Source of the DNA: Clostridia bacterium DTU025
Lineage (GTDB): Bacteria > Bacillota > DTU025
DNA length: 56,792 bases
Direction: 5' to 3'
Assembly: GCA_001513145.1 (NCBI GenBank)
Contig: LFSP01000008.1
Span: 6,510 to 63,301 of the forward strand
Made by a program: the position numbers and the translations under genes. Position 1 is the first letter of the stretch. Each line of letters begins with the position of its first letter. Below the pieces are notes generated by a model. The model ran no database searches. It was not told where the DNA came from and worked only from the letters and a program-made list of their open reading frames with translations. Positions 8,554 to 16,783 of the stretch are shown here, one piece after another.

Positions 8554-9396
8554 ATGACGGCATTCGGAATGCACCTTTCGGTGGCGGGAGGACTGCCTAA
8601 GGCAGTCACTCGCGCCATCGAGCTTGGGTGCGACGGCTTTCAGGTTTTCGCTCGCAATCCCCGGTCCATGAGGGCCAAACCGCTGGAGCCCGAGCAGGTG
8701 GCCGCCTTCCGACATGCCCGGGAGGAGGCCGGGATGTGGCCGGTGGTGGTGCACGTGAACTACCTGGTGAACGTGGCCACGCCCAAGGAGGAGCTGTACG
8801 ACCTTTCGTGCGACGTTCTCGGCGATGAGCTGGCCCGGGCGCAGGCCATCGGCGCCGACATCGTGGTGATGCACCCTGGGCACCATCTGGGAACCGGCAT
8901 CGATGAGGCCATCACGCGCGTAGCCGCAGCTATCGACAGGGCATATGAGCAGTCAGATTCGCAGGTGACGCTGTGCATCGAGAACATGGCAGGAGCCGGA
9001 ACCGAGGTTGGTCGAACCTTCGCAGAGCTTAAGCAGATAATCGATTCCTGTCGCCACGGCGACCTCTTGGGCGTGTGCTTCGACACATGCCACGCCTTCG
9101 CCGCAGGTTACGACGTGGCGACGCCTGAGGGGCTCGACGCCACCCTGGACGAGATATCCAGCACTGTCGGGCTGCAGCGGGTAAAGATGGTGCATGCCAA
9201 CGACGCCATGGGCACCCTTGGTTCCGGCAAGGACCGGCACCACAACATAGGTAAAGGGAACATAGGTCTTCGAGGCTTCACCGAGATCCTGTCGCGGCCC
9301 GCTATGGCGAGGCTTCCGTTCATACTGGAGACGCCTGTGAACTCCCCCGAAGACCAGGAGCGTGACCTGGCGGCCATCAGGTCGTGCGTTCCATGA
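8554..9396 (+). CDS. nfo: Endonuclease IV
   Basis: AP endonuclease that cleaves 5' of abasic sites in base excision repair. The TIM-barrel family motifs are all present in 280 aa: GMHLSVAGGL at the start, VHVNYLVN, MHPGHH, ENMAG, DTCHAFAAGYD, and the zinc-binding HANDAMGTLGSGKDRHHNIG, ending with LETP. The start ATG has TTTGGAGGT at good spacing. Its stop overlaps the ATG of the helicase gene by 4 nt, so the two repair genes are probably co-translated. Confidence 0.96.
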   Translation: MTAFGMHLSVAGGLPKAVTRAIELGCDGFQVFARNPRSMRAKPLEPEQVAAFRHAREEAGMWPVVVHVNYLVNVATPKEELYDLSCDVLGDELARAQAIGADIVVMHPGHHLGTGIDEAITRVAAAIDRAYEQSDSQVTLCIENMAGAGTEVGRTFAELKQIIDSCRHGDLLGVCFDTCHAFAAGYDVATPEGLDATLDEISSTVGLQRVKMVHANDAMGTLGSGKDRHHNIGKGNIGLRGFTEILSRPAMARLPFILETPVNSPEDQERDLAAIRSCVP

Positions 9397-12056
9397 AGAC
9401 CTACCACGAGGGCGCCGTTCAGAACTATCTGTCTGAAGAGGCCCGACGGAAGCTTTCCGATGCCATCAGGCAGGCGGGCGGCGCTGAGGTGTTCGCGGTC
9501 GGACGCTGCGATCGCGACTACATTGTGATCGATGTGGACGTGCTGTCCGTGGGTCATATGAGCGCAGCGCCGGTGGTGTCGGCCGCCCTCATGCGTGGGC
9601 AGGTTGTCCTGCACAACCACCCGTCAGGTCAGCTGATGCCGTCCGATGCGGACCTTGCTGTCGCCTCAGCCCTGGCCCAGAAGGGCATAGGCTTCTGGAT
9701 CGTGGACAACGCTGTGCAGAGGATCCGTCCCGTAACCGATCCGATGACCAACGCCTCCGGCTCCATCGTCATCGCCCCCGCCGACATCGAGCACCTCTTC
9801 TCCGATCACGGCCTCCTTGCGAAAGGCTATCCTGACTACGAGCCACGGCCGGGACAGTTGCTGATGGCCCTGAAAGTGACGGAGGCCCTTTCCACCGTGT
9901 CCCACCTTGTTGTTGAGGCCGGCACAGGCACGGGCAAGTCGCTAGCGTATCTCGCTCCGATCGTGCTCTGGGCGCAGAGGAACGAGGCGCGTGTGGTGGT
10001 GTCCACAAACACCATTAACCTGCAGGAGCAGCTGATTGCCTCGGACATCCCCGCGCTGGCGAAGGCGTTGGGGGAGCCCGTTCGCGCATGCCTGGTGAAG
10101 GGCAGAGCCAACTACCTATGCCTTCGGAAGCTCGACACCGCGCTCGCGGAGGACTATCTTTCGGACGAGCTTGCCCCCATCGTCAGCTGGGCGCAGACCA
10201 CCGTCACCGGCGACAGGTCCACGATGCCTTTCGAGCCTTCGCCCGAGGCGTGGGAGCTGGTGTGCGCGGAGCCGGATCTATGCCTCGGCCAGCGCTGCTC
10301 CTATTATGCACAGTGCTTCTTCTTCGCCGCGAGAAGGAACATGGAGTCCGCGCAGGTGCTGGTGACCAATCACCATCTCTTGTTCGCTGACGCAGCCATC
10401 AGGCAGCAGATGGGACAGCGTGCCGCCAAAGGGGTGCTGCCGAAATACCGCGCCGTGGTGCTGGACGAGGCCCACAACGCTGCGGACGTGGCCACGGAGT
10501 ATTTTGGCATGCAGGCGTCGCGCCTTGGCGCAGTCAGGCTGCTCAACCAAGTGTTCAGGAAGGAGTCGAGGCCTGCGGCGCGGGAGCAGGGCTCGGAGCA
10601 GGCGGATTCAGGCGGAGGAGCGCTGGCGAGAGCCCGTGCGTACATCTTCCGCCATTGGGGTGACAGAGAGCGCGAGGCGTCGCTGAGGGCGGCGGTGGAG
10701 ATCTTGGATATGGAGGCCATACCCGCAGCCATCAGATGCAGGGATTCCTGCGAGAACTTCTTTTCCGAGCTGCGGACACTGATGTTGTCTCGCCCGGCCT
10801 CTGAGGAGGCCGGAGAGTGGACCGACGCAGCAAGCAGGAACGAGCGCGAGGTCAGGATAGACCGCAAGCTGACCGAGAACGACGCATGGAACCGGCGAGT
10901 ATACCCAGCCCACGAGGGGTTCGCTGCGGCCCTGGAAGACCTGGCTGAGTCTATATCCCGGCTGGCCAAGGCGCTGAGAGGCAGAGGCGATGACGACGCC
11001 GGGTGCACGGAAGCCGATGGACTCGGTCATGCCGCTGACGGGTCAGGTGACGCCGACGGAGCCGACCCCTCAGGCGCCGCCCTGCTCATGGAGCTTCGCG
11101 CCTACTCGGCCAGGGCCGTCGCGTTGGCTGAGGCGGTCAGGTTTGCGGTGAAGGCTGACTCACCTGACTTCGTGTACTGGGTGGAGGTATCTGGCCGCGG
11201 GAGGCGTTCCAATGTGCGGCTGATCGCGGCGCCCATAGAGCCGGGCCCTGAGATAGTCCAGTCGCTGCTTCCAGGCGTCGACACGGCGGTGTTCACGTCG
11301 GCCACCCTGGCCGTCGGCAACAGTTTCGAGTACTCCGCTCACTCTCTGGGCCTCGATACACTGGAGCCAGACTGCGTGCAGTACGTGGTGGCGCCGTCTC
11401 CCTTCGATTTCGCATCCCAAGCGTTGCTTCTTTGCGCAGACGACATGCCTGTTCCCGACTCGCCTGGTTGGGAGCCGAGGCTGTTGGAGGCGCTGGCCTC
11501 GCTGCTGGACGCCTCCGGCGGACGGGCCTTCGTGCTCTTCACCTCATACAAGCTGCTGAAGTCCATGGCATCACAGATCGAGCCGTACATGCGACAGCAC
11601 GGAATGCGCCTTCTGGTGCAGGGCGACAAGCCGCGGAAGGCCCTGCTGGACGAGTTCAGGTCCGACATTGGCTCGGTGCTTTTCGGGACGGACTCCTTCT
11701 GGGAAGGGGTAGACGTTCCCGGCCAGGCGCTGTCGTGCGTGATCATTCCACGGCTGCCATTTGCTGTGCCTACGGCACCCCTTCTTCAGGCCAGGGTTGA
11801 TTCGGTTCGGGCAAGGGGCGGCGATCCCTTCAGGGAGCTTGCGCTTCCGGCGGCGGTGCTCAAATTCAAGCAGGGATTCGGCAGGCTGATCCGAACCTCT
11901 ACCGATAGGGGTGCAGTGGCTGTGCTGGACCCCAGGATAGTGACTCGCAGATACGGGCGGCATTTCATAAGATCTCTGCCTGACTGTTCAAAGGCCGTGG
12001 GACCTGTGAGCGAACTAGCAGCGGCCTTGAGAGACTGGCTTTGCGCAGGCACATGA
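9393..12056 (+). CDS. DinG-type DNA helicase fused to an N-terminal RadC/JAB (JAMM) domain
   Basis: A superfamily 2 helicase of the DinG/XPD type, 887 aa. Residues about 1-120 form a RadC-like JAB domain with intact metal-ligand motif HNHPSG-x4-S-x2-D (about residues 74-87). The helicase begins near 150: Walker A AGTGTGKS near 177, a cysteine-rich insertion (CLVKG...CLGQRCSYYAQC) fitting the 4Fe-4S domain, VLDEAHNA near 357, and the C-terminal motor blocks TDSFWEGVDVPG and QGFGRLIRTS. Typical DinG proteins have no front domain or a DnaQ-like exonuclease; here a JAB domain takes that place. The ATG at 9393 overlaps the nfo stop (ATGA). A role in unwinding 5'-tailed, R-loop or damaged DNA is known for the family; the JAB activity is unknown. 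Confidence 0.9.
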   Translation: MKTYHEGAVQNYLSEEARRKLSDAIRQAGGAEVFAVGRCDRDYIVIDVDVLSVGHMSAAPVVSAALMRGQVVLHNHPSGQLMPSDADLAVASALAQKGIGFWIVDNAVQRIRPVTDPMTNASGSIVIAPADIEHLFSDHGLLAKGYPDYEPRPGQLLMALKVTEALSTVSHLVVEAGTGTGKSLAYLAPIVLWAQRNEARVVVSTNTINLQEQLIASDIPALAKALGEPVRACLVKGRANYLCLRKLDTALAEDYLSDELAPIVSWAQTTVTGDRSTMPFEPSPEAWELVCAEPDLCLGQRCSYYAQCFFFAARRNMESAQVLVTNHHLLFADAAIRQQMGQRAAKGVLPKYRAVVLDEAHNAADVATEYFGMQASRLGAVRLLNQVFRKESRPAAREQGSEQADSGGGALARARAYIFRHWGDREREASLRAAVEILDMEAIPAAIRCRDSCENFFSELRTLMLSRPASEEAGEWTDAASRNEREVRIDRKLTENDAWNRRVYPAHEGFAAALEDLAESISRLAKALRGRGDDDAGCTEADGLGHAADGSGDADGADPSGAALLMELRAYSARAVALAEAVRFAVKADSPDFVYWVEVSGRGRRSNVRLIAAPIEPGPEIVQSLLPGVDTAVFTSATLAVGNSFEYSAHSLGLDTLEPDCVQYVVAPSPFDFASQALLLCADDMPVPDSPGWEPRLLEALASLLDASGGRAFVLFTSYKLLKSMASQIEPYMRQHGMRLLVQGDKPRKALLDEFRSDIGSVLFGTDSFWEGVDVPGQALSCVIIPRLPFAVPTAPLLQARVDSVRARGGDPFRELALPAAVLKFKQGFGRLIRTSTDRGAVAVLDPRIVTRRYGRHFIRSLPDCSKAVGPVSELAAALRDWLCAGT

Positions 12057-12140: not shown

Positions 12141-14063
12141 GTGGTACTGATCGTTGTCAGTAGGCGCTCACACATGGCCGCGTTGGCGATCGGGATCCTG
12201 GCGCTGCTGATCCTGACGGGCATGGGGATCGGGATGCTCGGTGACGACGCCGTGGCGGCCCAGTCCGATGCAAGGCTGGTTCCCATCTACTCCGTGGCCA
12301 GGGATGACAAGGCAGTTGCCATTACCGTAGACGCCACGTGGGGCGCCGACTTCACCCCCCAACTATTGGATCTCTTTGACCAACACGCCGTCAAAGTCAC
12401 CTTCTTCCTCGCAGGCCACTGGATCACCGATTACCCTGACATGGTGAAGGAGATCGCCGCTCGGGGCCACGAGGTGGGCAACCACTCGTGGACTCATCCT
12501 AACATGGGCTCCCTACCTGTGGAGCGCATCAGGGAGGAGCTGGAGCGGACGCAACGGGCCATCGCCGACCTCATCGGAGTTGCACCCAAGGTGTTTAGGC
12601 CTCCCTTCGGCGATTACAGCAACACGCTGATAACCGAGGCCGGCAGGATGGGCCTGCAGACGATCCAGTGGAGCATCGACTCCCTCGACTGGAAGAACCC
12701 CACGACTGCAGAGATCGTGGAGCGGGTCATGAGCCGGATGAAGCCGGGGGCGATCGTGCTCTTTCACAACGCCGCCCAGAACACGCCGGCAGCGCTGGCC
12801 CAGATAATCCCCAGGCTTAAGGCTGAGGGATACTCGCTGGTTACCGTCTCCGAGCTGCTCTTGAAGGGGGATACGTACATCAACCGCAACACGGGCGAGC
12901 AACGGCCGGCTGCGCCGAAGCCGGCGGCGCCTGAGTCGCAGCCAGCTGGGGACTCCGAAGAGCAGGCGCGCACGGAAGACGATGAGTCGGGGAGACGTCC
13001 CCAGGACGAACCGGAGACCCGTCCCCTGGTCAGCTTCCAGGACCAGGCTGAGATCGGAGGTGAGCACGTGCTGGTAGTGAGTGTGAGGAATCGGAGGCTG
13101 GCGCTGGCTCTGGTGGCCCTGGGACTCATGGTGCTCACTGCTGCGGTGGTGGTGGCCTCGCCGTCTGCCAGGCGCAGGGTGCTTGGGGTTCGACGCGGCG
13201 TGACGCTGGCCGGGCAAGACCTGGGAGGGCTGTACCCTGACGAGGTGAGACGTGTGGTACTCAGCCTTTCGTCACAGATCGAGCGTCACCCGAGGGACGC
13301 CATGTACCATTCCGAAACCGGCGAGATCATCCCCGAAGAGCTTGGAGTCGCGCTAGATGTTGACGGTACCGTGGAGGCGGTGATGTCTGCGCCCAAAGGG
13401 GCGCAAGTGGAACTGTCCCTGAGGGAGGTACCCCCTAAGGTTACGGCTGCTATGCTGAAGCCGGTCCATGGCGTCACCACTTCGACGCCTGCTGTCTCAC
13501 TGGTCTTCAACGTGGCTTGGGGTGAGGAATACCTGCCCGACATCCTGTCGGCTCTGCGGGAAGCGGGAGCCAAGTGCACGTTCTTTCTGACGGGCACGTG
13601 GGTGCGACAGTATCCGAACCTTGTGTCGGCCATTCACGAGGACGGGCACGAGCTGGCCAACCACGGCTGGAGCCACGCCCACCCGAAGGCCATGTCGGAC
13701 TCGGGGCTGGAGCGGCTCATCGGCGACAACGAGGCGCTCATCAGGGAACTCACCGGCGTGCGGACAGTGCTGTTTGCCCCGCCCTACGGAGAGGTGGACC
13801 AGAGGATTGCGTCAGTGGCGGCGAGGATGGGATACACCACGATCATGTGGACAGTGGACACCATCGACTGGCAATTGCCGTCTCCTGAGGTGGTGACCGA
13901 GCGTGCCCTGTCGAAGCTGGCGCCCGGGAACATCATCCTGATGCATCCCACTGACCCCACGGCGAAGGCACTCAGAAGCATCCTGGAGCAGCTGAGGAGC
14001 CAAGGCTACTCCATGGTCACCGTGTCGGAGCTTCTGAAGATTGGAAAGGCCCGCCACAGTTAG
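12141..14063 (+). CDS. Double polysaccharide deacetylase (PdaB/YlxY-like tandem)
   Basis: A 640-aa protein made of two units, each a transmembrane anchor followed by a CE4 NodB-type domain. Anchor 1 is about residues 12-32, with domain 1 about 56-255: D64 in TVDATWG, H115 and H119 in NHSWTH, and RPPFGDY. A Pro/Glu-rich linker follows (about 265-305), then anchor 2 (about 320-340) and domain 2 (about 450-630) with H508 and H512 in NHGWSH. In domain 2 the first motif reads FNVAWG, so N457 replaces the catalytic Asp, as in YlxY-like proteins. Such proteins modify peptidoglycan in sporulation. The start is GTG with GGGGAGG upstream. A strong internal GTG start at 13068 is annotated separately. 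Confidence 0.88.
   Translation: MVLIVVSRRSHMAALAIGILALLILTGMGIGMLGDDAVAAQSDARLVPIYSVARDDKAVAITVDATWGADFTPQLLDLFDQHAVKVTFFLAGHWITDYPDMVKEIAARGHEVGNHSWTHPNMGSLPVERIREELERTQRAIADLIGVAPKVFRPPFGDYSNTLITEAGRMGLQTIQWSIDSLDWKNPTTAEIVERVMSRMKPGAIVLFHNAAQNTPAALAQIIPRLKAEGYSLVTVSELLLKGDTYINRNTGEQRPAAPKPAAPESQPAGDSEEQARTEDDESGRRPQDEPETRPLVSFQDQAEIGGEHVLVVSVRNRRLALALVALGLMVLTAAVVVASPSARRRVLGVRRGVTLAGQDLGGLYPDEVRRVVLSLSSQIERHPRDAMYHSETGEIIPEELGVALDVDGTVEAVMSAPKGAQVELSLREVPPKVTAAMLKPVHGVTTSTPAVSLVFNVAWGEEYLPDILSALREAGAKCTFFLTGTWVRQYPNLVSAIHEDGHELANHGWSHAHPKAMSDSGLERLIGDNEALIRELTGVRTVLFAPPYGEVDQRIASVAARMGYTTIMWTVDTIDWQLPSPEVVTERALSKLAPGNIILMHPTDPTAKALRSILEQLRSQGYSMVTVSELLKIGKARHS
13056..13070 (+). promoter_or_regulatory. 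Internal ribosome binding site and GTG start in the double deacetylase
   Basis: GGAGG at 13056-13060 precedes an in-frame GTG at 13068-13070 by seven bases. Initiation here would give a 331-aa protein that begins just before the second transmembrane anchor, i.e. a complete YlxY-like protein. No stop codon separates it from the upstream domain. It looks like the retained start of a formerly separate gene. Confidence 0.6.
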
Positions 14064-14283: not shown

Positions 14284-15190
14284 TGACAGGTGCGTGATGG
14301 AGGATCTAGTAGCCCTCCTCCGAATCGAGGAGCACTGGCCGATGTGCTCCTCGATTCGGAGGGGCTGTTGTATTGCTGCCCCTCCGAAACTAGGAGAATC
14401 CCCGGTTTCAGGGGGCATAGGGCGAACATGAGATGGGACGGGCGAAACGAGGGCGGGCGCAGCCAGCCGTCGTCCACGCTAAATCCCAGCTAGAAGCGTG
14501 GCGGCGCATGTCCGTTCGAGCGAGCCTGGGGCGCTGGAGAGACGATCACGAGGATTTCCACCAGATCGAGGAGCAGTCGCCGGGGTGCTCCTCGATCTGT
14601 AGGGGCTATCGCCCAGTTGCCCCTACGCAAGGAGGTCAACCCGCGGTTCCGCGACGTGCGAGGTCATGATGAGGTCAGTGCGGCAAAGAAGTAGTGGCGG
14701 CGCTCAGCGCCGCCCTCGTTAAGGCACAGCTAGAGACGGTGGGGGCTATGTCCGTTCGAGCGAACATGGGGGACTGGGGAGGCGATAGGGAGGATCTCCA
14801 CCAGATCGAGGAGCAGTCGCCGGGGTGCTCCTCGGTTTGGAGGGGCTATCGCCCACTTGCTCCTACGAAAGGAGGTCAACCCGCGGTTCCGCAACGTGCG
14901 AGACCATGATGAGGTCAGTACGGCAAAGAAGTACAGGGGGCGCTCAGCGCCGCCCTCGTTAAGGCACAGTCAGAGACGGTGGGGGCCATGTCTGGTCGGG
15001 CGGAGGCGGCACGTTGGAGAGATGGTCGAGAGGATTTCCACCAGATCGAGGAGCACTCCAGGGGGTACTCCTCGATTCGGAGGGGTGACTACCGACTTGC
15101 TCCTCCAAGACGAGGAGAACCCCCGGTTCCGGAGGGCCGGGGGCGACTACGGGATCGCGATCAGCACGGCAAAGCAAGGCCGGCGTCAGC
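14284..15190 (+). repeat. Tandem array of four ~240-bp hairpin-forming repeats
   Basis: Four units recur with a spacing of 240-241 bp; the core ATCGAGGAGCA starts at 14324, 14565, 14805 and 15045. Units 2 and 3 are closest, unit 1 is most diverged, and unit 4 runs up to the 3' end of the GH18 gene. Each unit has hairpin H1 around ATCGAGGAGCA, hairpin H2 (e.g. GTAGGGGC/GCCCCTAC), an SD-like AGGAG(GT) box, and a short hairpin H3 around GGTTCC. Units 2 and 3 also share a spacer hairpin GGCGGCGC/GCGCCGCC. Several arm differences between units are compensatory. Short reading frames of about 70 codons exist, but differences between copies are not biased to third positions, so a structured RNA or DNA element is more likely than a protein. 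Confidence 0.85.
14317..14387 (+). repeat. Strong double hairpin of repeat unit 1
   Basis: A perfect 19-bp stem pairs 14317-14335 with 14344-14362 around an 8-nt loop. A second perfect 10-bp stem pairs TCGGAGGGGC (14356-14365) with GCCCCTCCGA (14378-14387). The two stems share bases 14356-14362 and so are mutually exclusive in part, like an attenuator. No U-run follows. Confidence 0.75.
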
Positions 15191-15223: not shown

Positions 15224-16558
15224 TCAGTTCCGGAGCGCGGTCTCGATGGCCTTCCAGCTGTTGTCATCTTCCTGACCTAACCGCCAAAGGGCTATTCCAC
15301 CGATGTCGTACCGGTCCACGAGTTTTAGCTTCATCTTGAGGCTCTCGGTGCTCTCGAAGTAAACCTTGTGGGTCACTCCGCCAGACTTGTACGTGTAGTA
15401 GGGCACCTGAGCCACGTTGTCCCACTGCACCTTCGCGCCGTGCTTTGCCGCGGTGCTTATCGCCTGGCTGTAAGACACGCCCTTGGCCTTGTTGGTCTTG
15501 GTGTTCCAGTCGTAGCCGTAGGCCGCCACGCCCATGATCACCTTGTGTTTTGGGATCTGGCTCGTGGCGTACTTGATGACTTTTTCGACCCAGGGTAGCG
15601 ACGCCACCGGACCGGGACTGGTGCCGGAGGTATGCTCGTCGTAGGTCATCAGCATTATCTGATCGCATATCTGTCCCAGTGCGTGGTAGTCGAATGCGCC
15701 GATCCAAGCCGACTTGGGGGAGTCGGTGTGCTTGGCAGGCACTGACATGGTCACCAGATACCCCTTGGGCCTGAGCTCCGCGGCCAGCTCCTTCATGAAC
15801 TTGGTGAGGACCGTCCTGTCGGCCGGAGGCACGTTCTCGAAGTCGATGTTGACGCCGTCATAGCCACGTTGCGCGACGATCCTGGCGATGTTCTTCACCG
15901 CCGCGGCCCTTGCGGACTGCGAGTTCAGGAGCGCGCTCACCTCGGACTTGCTGAAGCTGGAGCCCGCCATGTTGTGCACCAGTGCCAGGTTCTTCAGGCC
16001 CTTGCTAGTTGCGATCTCCATGGCGTCGGCGAAGTGGCTTCCTGTGACTTTGCCGCTGCGGTCCACCGAATAGGAGAACGGAGCAATGGCTGTGAGTACG
16101 CTGGACTGTGCCTTCAGGACGTTATACGAAGACTTGTCGCCTGAGTAGTTCACGGTGTAGTAGCCGACGACGGCACGGCCGGAGCCTGACGCAGGGACGG
16201 ACGAGCCCATGTTCACCAGCGACGACGCGACCCAACCGTACCCGCCGCTCGGCAGGCTAATCTGGAACCATGAACCCTTTTGCGCGATGAGCCTCACGGG
16301 TGTGTTCTGTGGCAGCACCTTCAGCACCGGGTAGTTCTCTCCCGGGCCGGTCCGAACATTAGCATTCTTTGCCAGAGCTGCGCTGCGGCCTGCGAGGTCT
16401 GCTATTACGTTCTTTTCTGTTTGGGGGGTGGGCTGTGTTGTGTTGATGCCAGGCGGCGAAGGCACCTGGGTGCCCTGGTTTCCAGTGCGCATACCCGACA
16501 GCGAGCTAGCCATGTACAAGAGGACGACGAGTGCTGTGACTGTTGCGTTAGGCTGCAC
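15224..16558 (-). CDS. Secreted SH3b-GH18 glycoside hydrolase (spore/cell wall type)
   Basis: From GTG 16558 the protein is 444 aa. An N-terminal hydrophobic segment (about residues 6-22) is a signal or anchor, followed by a Pro/Thr-rich linker, a bacterial SH3 domain (about 62-118, NVRTGPGENYPVLKVL...GWV), and a GH18 barrel from about 127 on. The active-site strand reads DGVNIDFENV: D234, D239 and E241 match the family DxxxDxE, with E241 the acid/base. Relatives such as YaaH/SleL act on spore cortex peptidoglycan, but carry LysM rather than SH3 domains. The GTG start is chosen because AAGGAGG lies eight bases upstream; further upstream in-frame codons lack a ribosome site. It is transcribed toward the repeat array. 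Confidence 0.88.
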   Translation of the reverse strand: MQPNATVTALVVLLYMASSLSGMRTGNQGTQVPSPPGINTTQPTPQTEKNVIADLAGRSAALAKNANVRTGPGENYPVLKVLPQNTPVRLIAQKGSWFQISLPSGGYGWVASSLVNMGSSVPASGSGRAVVGYYTVNYSGDKSSYNVLKAQSSVLTAIAPFSYSVDRSGKVTGSHFADAMEIATSKGLKNLALVHNMAGSSFSKSEVSALLNSQSARAAAVKNIARIVAQRGYDGVNIDFENVPPADRTVLTKFMKELAAELRPKGYLVTMSVPAKHTDSPKSAWIGAFDYHALGQICDQIMLMTYDEHTSGTSPGPVASLPWVEKVIKYATSQIPKHKVIMGVAAYGYDWNTKTNKAKGVSYSQAISTAAKHGAKVQWDNVAQVPYYTYKSGGVTHKVYFESTESLKMKLKLVDRYDIGGIALWRLGQEDDNSWKAIETALRN

Positions 16559-16783
16559 CAGGCGCCCCTCCTTCCTGAGCGTTCGAGTCTGGTAATGCGT
16601 ATGCCGCAGCGCAGCTAGACAGGGATTTCGACCTAGGCGTGATTCATCCTTCAAGCAAATAGATGGGCGAATGGGAGTACGTGGAATGCCGTCGGAATCG
16701 TGGTCCGCCGTGGGCTGCGGTGCAGGAAATCATGCACACGAGAAGAATAAGAACCGAATATCACGCTCTGTGGAGGAGTGCCC

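Follow-up and report, generated by a model that had tools for sequence, protein, structure and literature searches.

The tandem array at 14284-15190 of the window (the whole 56,792-nucleotide stretch of Clostridia bacterium DTU025 DNA analysed here) belongs to a lineage-restricted DNA element with about 14 intergenic copies in this genome, and we consider it about an even call that this element is REP/BIME-like and acts as a phased platform for a putative dimeric protein. Four lines of evidence point to such a DNA platform: dyads and distances conserved next to freely varying spacers, the helical register of the sites, a concerted shift between two genera, and polarity with respect to replication. 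Both the binding protein and the function of the arrays are what we infer from the data presented below.

The preliminary description of this DNA placed four copies of the core ATCGAGGAGCA at 14324, 14565, 14805 and 15045, and all four are present in the sequence of the window; the 240-bp tandem array is real, as Tandem Repeats Finder (TRF) reports it at 14498-15085 with a score of 830. The array is intergenic, with the convergent GH18 gene on one side and the polysaccharide deacetylase gene on the other (Table 1). The anatomy first given for each unit was incomplete: three equal palindromic boxes are present, and the hairpins H1 and H2 correspond to the two gaps that separate them. Likewise, the AGGAGG box is present, not as a separate element but as the right half of palindromic box 3, and the short hairpin H3 (CCGGTTTC..), described as part of each unit, occurs mainly in the window array and the related C32 array. 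Elsewhere in the window, positions 9384-12053 encode a protein of 890 aa that has a C-terminus of the DinG helicase type and, at its N-terminus, a weak match to RadC-like JAB.

Table 1. Elements of the array and its flanking genes (window coordinates)
Feature	Position	Strand	Remarks
Triplet 1	14313..14398	no strand	three palindromic boxes; CCTC-N6-GAGG cores at 14317, 14349, 14381; 32 bp apart
Triplet 2	14554..14639	no strand	box cores at 14558, 14590, 14622
Triplet 3	14794..14879	no strand	box cores at 14798, 14830, 14862
Triplet 4	15034..15119	no strand	box cores at 15038, 15070, 15102
Conserved motif TCTAGCTGGG, copy 1	14485..14494	-	near-palindrome YCYAGCTRGR across both genera
Conserved motif, copy 2 (CTCTAGCTGTG)	14725..14734	-	
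Conserved motif, copy 3, degenerate (CTCTGACTGTG)	14965..14974	-	
Facultative G+C-rich hairpin GGCGGCGCTCAGCGCCGCC	14696..14714	+	about 12 nt before the motif, leading strand
Variant of the facultative G+C-rich hairpin	14936-14954		
Flanking gene: polysaccharide deacetylase	12141..14063	+	context only
Flanking gene: SH3 + glycoside hydrolase family 18	15224..16654	-	context only; convergent

The covariance model search of the genome to which the window belongs (G000) gave 84 strand-hits, corresponding to 42 units (triplets) at 14 intergenic loci. Each unit comprises three palindromic boxes, TGCTCCTC-N6-GAGGAGCA with flanks reading TT..TGCTCCTC/GAGGAGCA, followed by a spacer with the motif CGTCTAGCTGGG-YYTTT at a constant offset after the triplet. 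Units are arranged head to tail with a period of 240-242 bp, and in most arrays a triplet is both the first and the last element. Arrays C5 and C24, like those of the sister genus, also have the G+C-rich hairpin beside the motif, at an unchanged distance from it. A hairpin pattern with a variable gap, AGGAGCN{8,20}TGCTCCTC, matched 23 times on the plus and 26 times on the minus strand of the 2.0-Mb genome versus 1 and 0 times in a reversed control; these matches lie about 240 bp apart, clustered on many contigs, and all those listed have an 11-base gap although 8-20 bases were allowed. Unrelated housekeeping genes flank the arrays, and their arrangement may be convergent, divergent or codirectional. 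The assembly is fragmented (52 contigs, 96.7% complete), several arrays lie at contig ends (C5, C21, C24) and stretches of N interrupt arrays at L116:1782-1929 and L057:3279-3330, so the copy numbers are probably underestimated. A coding 80-aa repeat, suggested by a frame in the C13 array, was rejected, since the period is 241 or 242 bp elsewhere in the family and no frame is kept.

The family has a very narrow distribution. The exact double box CCTCN6GAGGN18CCTCN6GAGG, found 41 times in G000 (control 0), has no match in 100 relatives, and blastn of 60 relatives gave no match to the repeat. No array was found by pattern scans of 84,980 species: a strict pattern had no matches in the scan of GTDB genomes, and a 20-base pattern matched three times in 84,980 genomes and once in IMG/VR, all unrelated single sites on inspection. 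The covariance-model search of relatives proposed in the preliminary description did return homologues, confined to one sister genus, G004, whose divergent arrays have CCTC-N6-GAGG boxes at 31-bp spacing, 260-bp units, the same motif and the hairpin beside it. Read along the leading strand, the motif is CCCAGCTAGA in G000 and TCTAGCTGGG in G004, with the joint form YCYAGCTRGR. A joint model (R2) run on 398 genomes of the phylum found arrays in G000 and G004 only; one further match reads as coding sequence and was taken as chance. A phage or plasmid origin was dropped, as blastn gave no useful match. One site, between YlmC and a Hint-like gene beside SpoIIR, is occupied by an array in both G000 and G004; it is empty in G002 and G008 and array-free in G005. 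Several genomes of the order conserve the small Hint/hedgehog-like gene itself (assigned by eye; L109:2374-2904, L116:305-985) downstream of YlmC.

The geometry of the boxes is almost invariant. The spacing between boxes is 32/32 bp in nearly all G000 triplets, where 31-33 bp was allowed and one unit has 33, and 31/31 bp in G004, that is, about three helical turns in either genus. The dyad sites are set at integral helical turns (32 or 31 bp), as expected of a phased protein-binding array. The distance from the third box to the first box of the next unit is 176-178 bp in nine arrays, and the reliable departures from it, 166 (C36, a value taken from covariance-model match coordinates), 186 (C35), 208 (C32) and 198 bp (G004), correspond to -1, +1, +3 and +2 helical turns. 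Each departure is a whole number of 10.5-bp turns (Rayleigh p ~0.01 for n=4 independent departures), which is suggestive of helical phasing of the array spacing, not proof of it. G000 spacings of 222, 245 and 271 bp were left out, as they trace back to N stretches or to a degenerate triplet that had been mis-anchored. Between arrays, spacer identity is 0.32 versus 0.27 in shifted controls, and within one array it averages 0.61. Judged by these sequence comparisons, the spacers are near-saturated between loci and most arrays are old. With spacers close to random while boxes and distances are kept, the conservation of the latter does not stem from recent copying.

The arrays are also polar. Unit orientation follows the leading strand, inferred from 20-kb GC skew in the fragmented assembly, in 11 of the 12 G000 arrays (p=0.006) and in all four scorable G004 arrays, one of which (C46), scored as following the leading strand, disagrees with the local coding bias. 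Where the hairpin is present, it lies 12-13 nt ahead of the motif on the leading strand in both genera.

The main rival to the DNA-platform reading is a mobile-element origin, in which a non-autonomous REP/BIME-type element, either the triplet or the whole unit, would be copied through single-stranded DNA by an HUH-type or other enzyme; tandem arrays would come from rolling-circle copying and the orientation bias from lagging-strand targeting. We regard it as a minor, though serious, possibility. Precedents are available in rolling-circle models of BIMEs by RAYT (PMC2817692) and in the IS200/IS605 elements, which target the lagging strand (PMC6006769). The arrays also resemble REP/BIME elements (PU, REPIN) in being intergenic, lineage-specific and sometimes tandem, with short G+C-rich palindromes dispersed over many sites (14 loci and 42 triplets with unrelated flanking genes) and grouped in regular clusters (32/32-bp triplets, 240-bp tandem), in which pairing between neighbours can produce a single long hairpin. 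Two further findings suit mobility: both genera have a hairpin 12-13 nt away from a conserved motif, and in relatives one of the loci is without an array. However, the GTAG or CGTC tag that marks one end of a REP palindrome (PMC3733652) does not abut the boxes, and no associated RAYT gene of the GTAG class was found: Y1_Tnp (PF01797) is absent from G000 in a search that was positive in controls, and a RAYT-driven REP was rejected on this ground. Y2_Tnp (IS91-type) gave no match in G000 either, in a search run without a positive control. There are only about 42 units, and they differ from REP/BIME in their equal-dyad triplets at exactly 31-32 bp, their 240-260-bp super-period and the extra spacer motif. 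A mobile origin would account for the dispersal, the tandem copying and the polarity, yet it does not explain why old copies, with spacers saturated between loci, keep box cores and distances undecayed. A REP/BIME-like mobile origin and a role as binding platform are compatible, the arrays being domesticated repeats, as proposed for BIMEs.

The compensatory changes that drew attention to the array are genuine (GAATCG/CGATTC in unit 1, AGATCG/CGATCT in unit 2), and, in line with the expectation that their excess should hold when more copies are aligned, inter-box covariation across the family exceeds shuffled and slid controls (0.214 vs 0.131 and 0.233 vs 0.135; 0/500 each), although such counts are inflated by the relatedness of the alignment rows. 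Permutation of whole arrays gave p=0.016 and 0.025 for inter-box pairing. The excess is of Watson-Crick pairs only (63 vs 46.5 and 68 vs 46.5 at inner positions), with no enrichment of G.U pairs (24 vs 31.6), and it occurs only where arms are long: G004, with its short arms, shows none. The dyads inside a box do not covary, so the case for a symmetric operator has to come from the invariant cores and the constant spacing. Perfect inverted repeats of 12-21 bp lie between the first and second box in some units but between the second and third in others, two units instead carry inverted repeats of 17 and 23 bp centred on box 2, and the hairpins of sibling units are mutually exclusive. In array C35, the loops of units c and d are reverse complements of each other, base for base. 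Homogenised arms together with an inverted spacer are a signature of template switching (PMC8604942), a process that can mimic compensatory evolution (PMC8794818). As the long perfect inverted repeats exclude one another and one loop is inverted, the compensatory changes look like products of template switching at DNA hairpins. In the first triplet of C40 (L055:2863-2942), the two inter-box loops are exact reverse complements within an inverted repeat with 23-bp arms centred on box 2; the C40 array also breaks the orientation rule. Pairing above chance could, in turn, mean that the DNA or RNA hairpins are themselves functional. The earlier suggestion of selection on RNA or DNA structure is borne out for the box cores and distances, but not for the near-random spacers, and an RNA function is unlikely.

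In its RNA version, the suggestion was that the tandem units form a structured non-coding RNA acting as a sponge for an RNA-binding protein such as CsrA, or for the anti-SD through AGGAGG/CCUCC. The units have low folding energies, each window unit beating its shuffles (z-scores of -5.4, -2.9, -4.0 and -3.7 for units 1-4), terminator-like hairpins lie inside the array, and the inter-box covariation could be read in the same way. The repeated hairpins with GGA-containing motifs also recall CsrB/RsmY-type sponge RNAs. Unlike in those RNAs, GGA sits here in stem arms and not in loops (the inter-box loops are 8-10 nt long and variable), the purine-rich box halves being located in stems, and the sequence is repeated at 14 loci, some of them between divergent genes. 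The csrA gene (PF02599) is absent from the 96.7%-complete genome by a search positive in three control genomes, a consensus promoter scan detected no sigma-70-type promoter in the array, and Rfam returned no family (best chance-level matches at E 0.23 and above). The RNAalifold consensus reaches only -2.7 kcal/mol and is not a stable fold; the inter-box covariation is present without the conserved consensus fold and G.U tolerance of an ncRNA family, sibling units form alternative stems, and the sister genus has no excess pairing. The sponge idea does not survive these results, and we assign little probability to the RNA reading as a whole. Least probable, and already disfavoured, are functionless neutral repeats kept by unequal crossing-over and template switching, which would account for the template-switch traces and for the local concerted evolution seen in spacers alike within arrays (0.61) and different between them (0.32), but not for constant 32-bp and ~177-bp distances and box cores across loci with near-random spacers, the same design at 31 bp throughout the sister genome, or the orientation bias.

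Under the DNA-platform reading, a dimeric DNA-binding protein would occupy each box, placing three aligned dimers per triplet on one face of the helix, and the array spacing would keep successive triplets in register. The resulting polar nucleoprotein array may serve chromosome organisation or replication-coupled processes of the gyrase, SMC or segregation type. In operator-like arrays, a genome-wide change of site sequence between lineages is expected with a co-evolving protein, and the genome-wide shift of the box flanks and of the spacing (31 vs 32 bp) between the two genera would reflect such co-evolution. The compensatory changes would arise by template switching at DNA hairpins formed by adjacent boxes. 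The protein encoded next to one array (L051:6400-7272, beside C32), which by eye combines a winged helix with a C-terminal domain like PD-(D/E)xK (Pfam gave no match), belongs to a multi-copy family; several genomes of the order, some of them array-free, carry up to 4-5 members. It was rejected as the cognate protein, as its distribution does not track the arrays.

Clusters of palindromic sites in helical phase are also found in parS clusters, centromere iterons and BIME-2, the last bound by gyrase (PMC2817692). The arrays described here differ from all of these in occupying many chromosomal loci, in their polarity relative to replication, in their unrelated sequence and in that their protein is putative. 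Sphingomonad-type palindromes (CYCCTGC-N4-GCAGGRG) also come in groups of three: at L076:1948-2148 (IMG/VR 2751185435), 18-bp palindromes form two such groups, CCCCTGC-N4-GCAGGGG at 33/33 bp and CTCCTGC-N4-GCAGGAG at 32/32 bp, and palindrome pairs at 32 bp occur in the Sphingobium genomes L073 and L074. Their core sequence is different, their host group unrelated and the stretch seen has no 240-bp array; they are possibly independent phased palindrome groups.

More tentatively, the 14 arrays of triple phased dyads could represent an undescribed chromosomal nucleoprotein system of one lineage, oriented with replication, in which box sequence and spacing (31 to 32 bp) shifted across the genome between the two sister genera together with the putative protein. 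The compensatory changes carry a caution, as changes resembling the outcome of selection on RNA show here the traces of template switching on DNA, an inverted loop among them. Interspersed repeats are common in bacteria, but they seldom keep a base-pair-exact geometry where loci are unrelated and spacers saturated, change it in step in a sister genus and follow replication in their orientation. Taken together, the geometry, the sister-genus shift and the orientation make it testable whether such repeats are selfish DNA or chromosome architecture.
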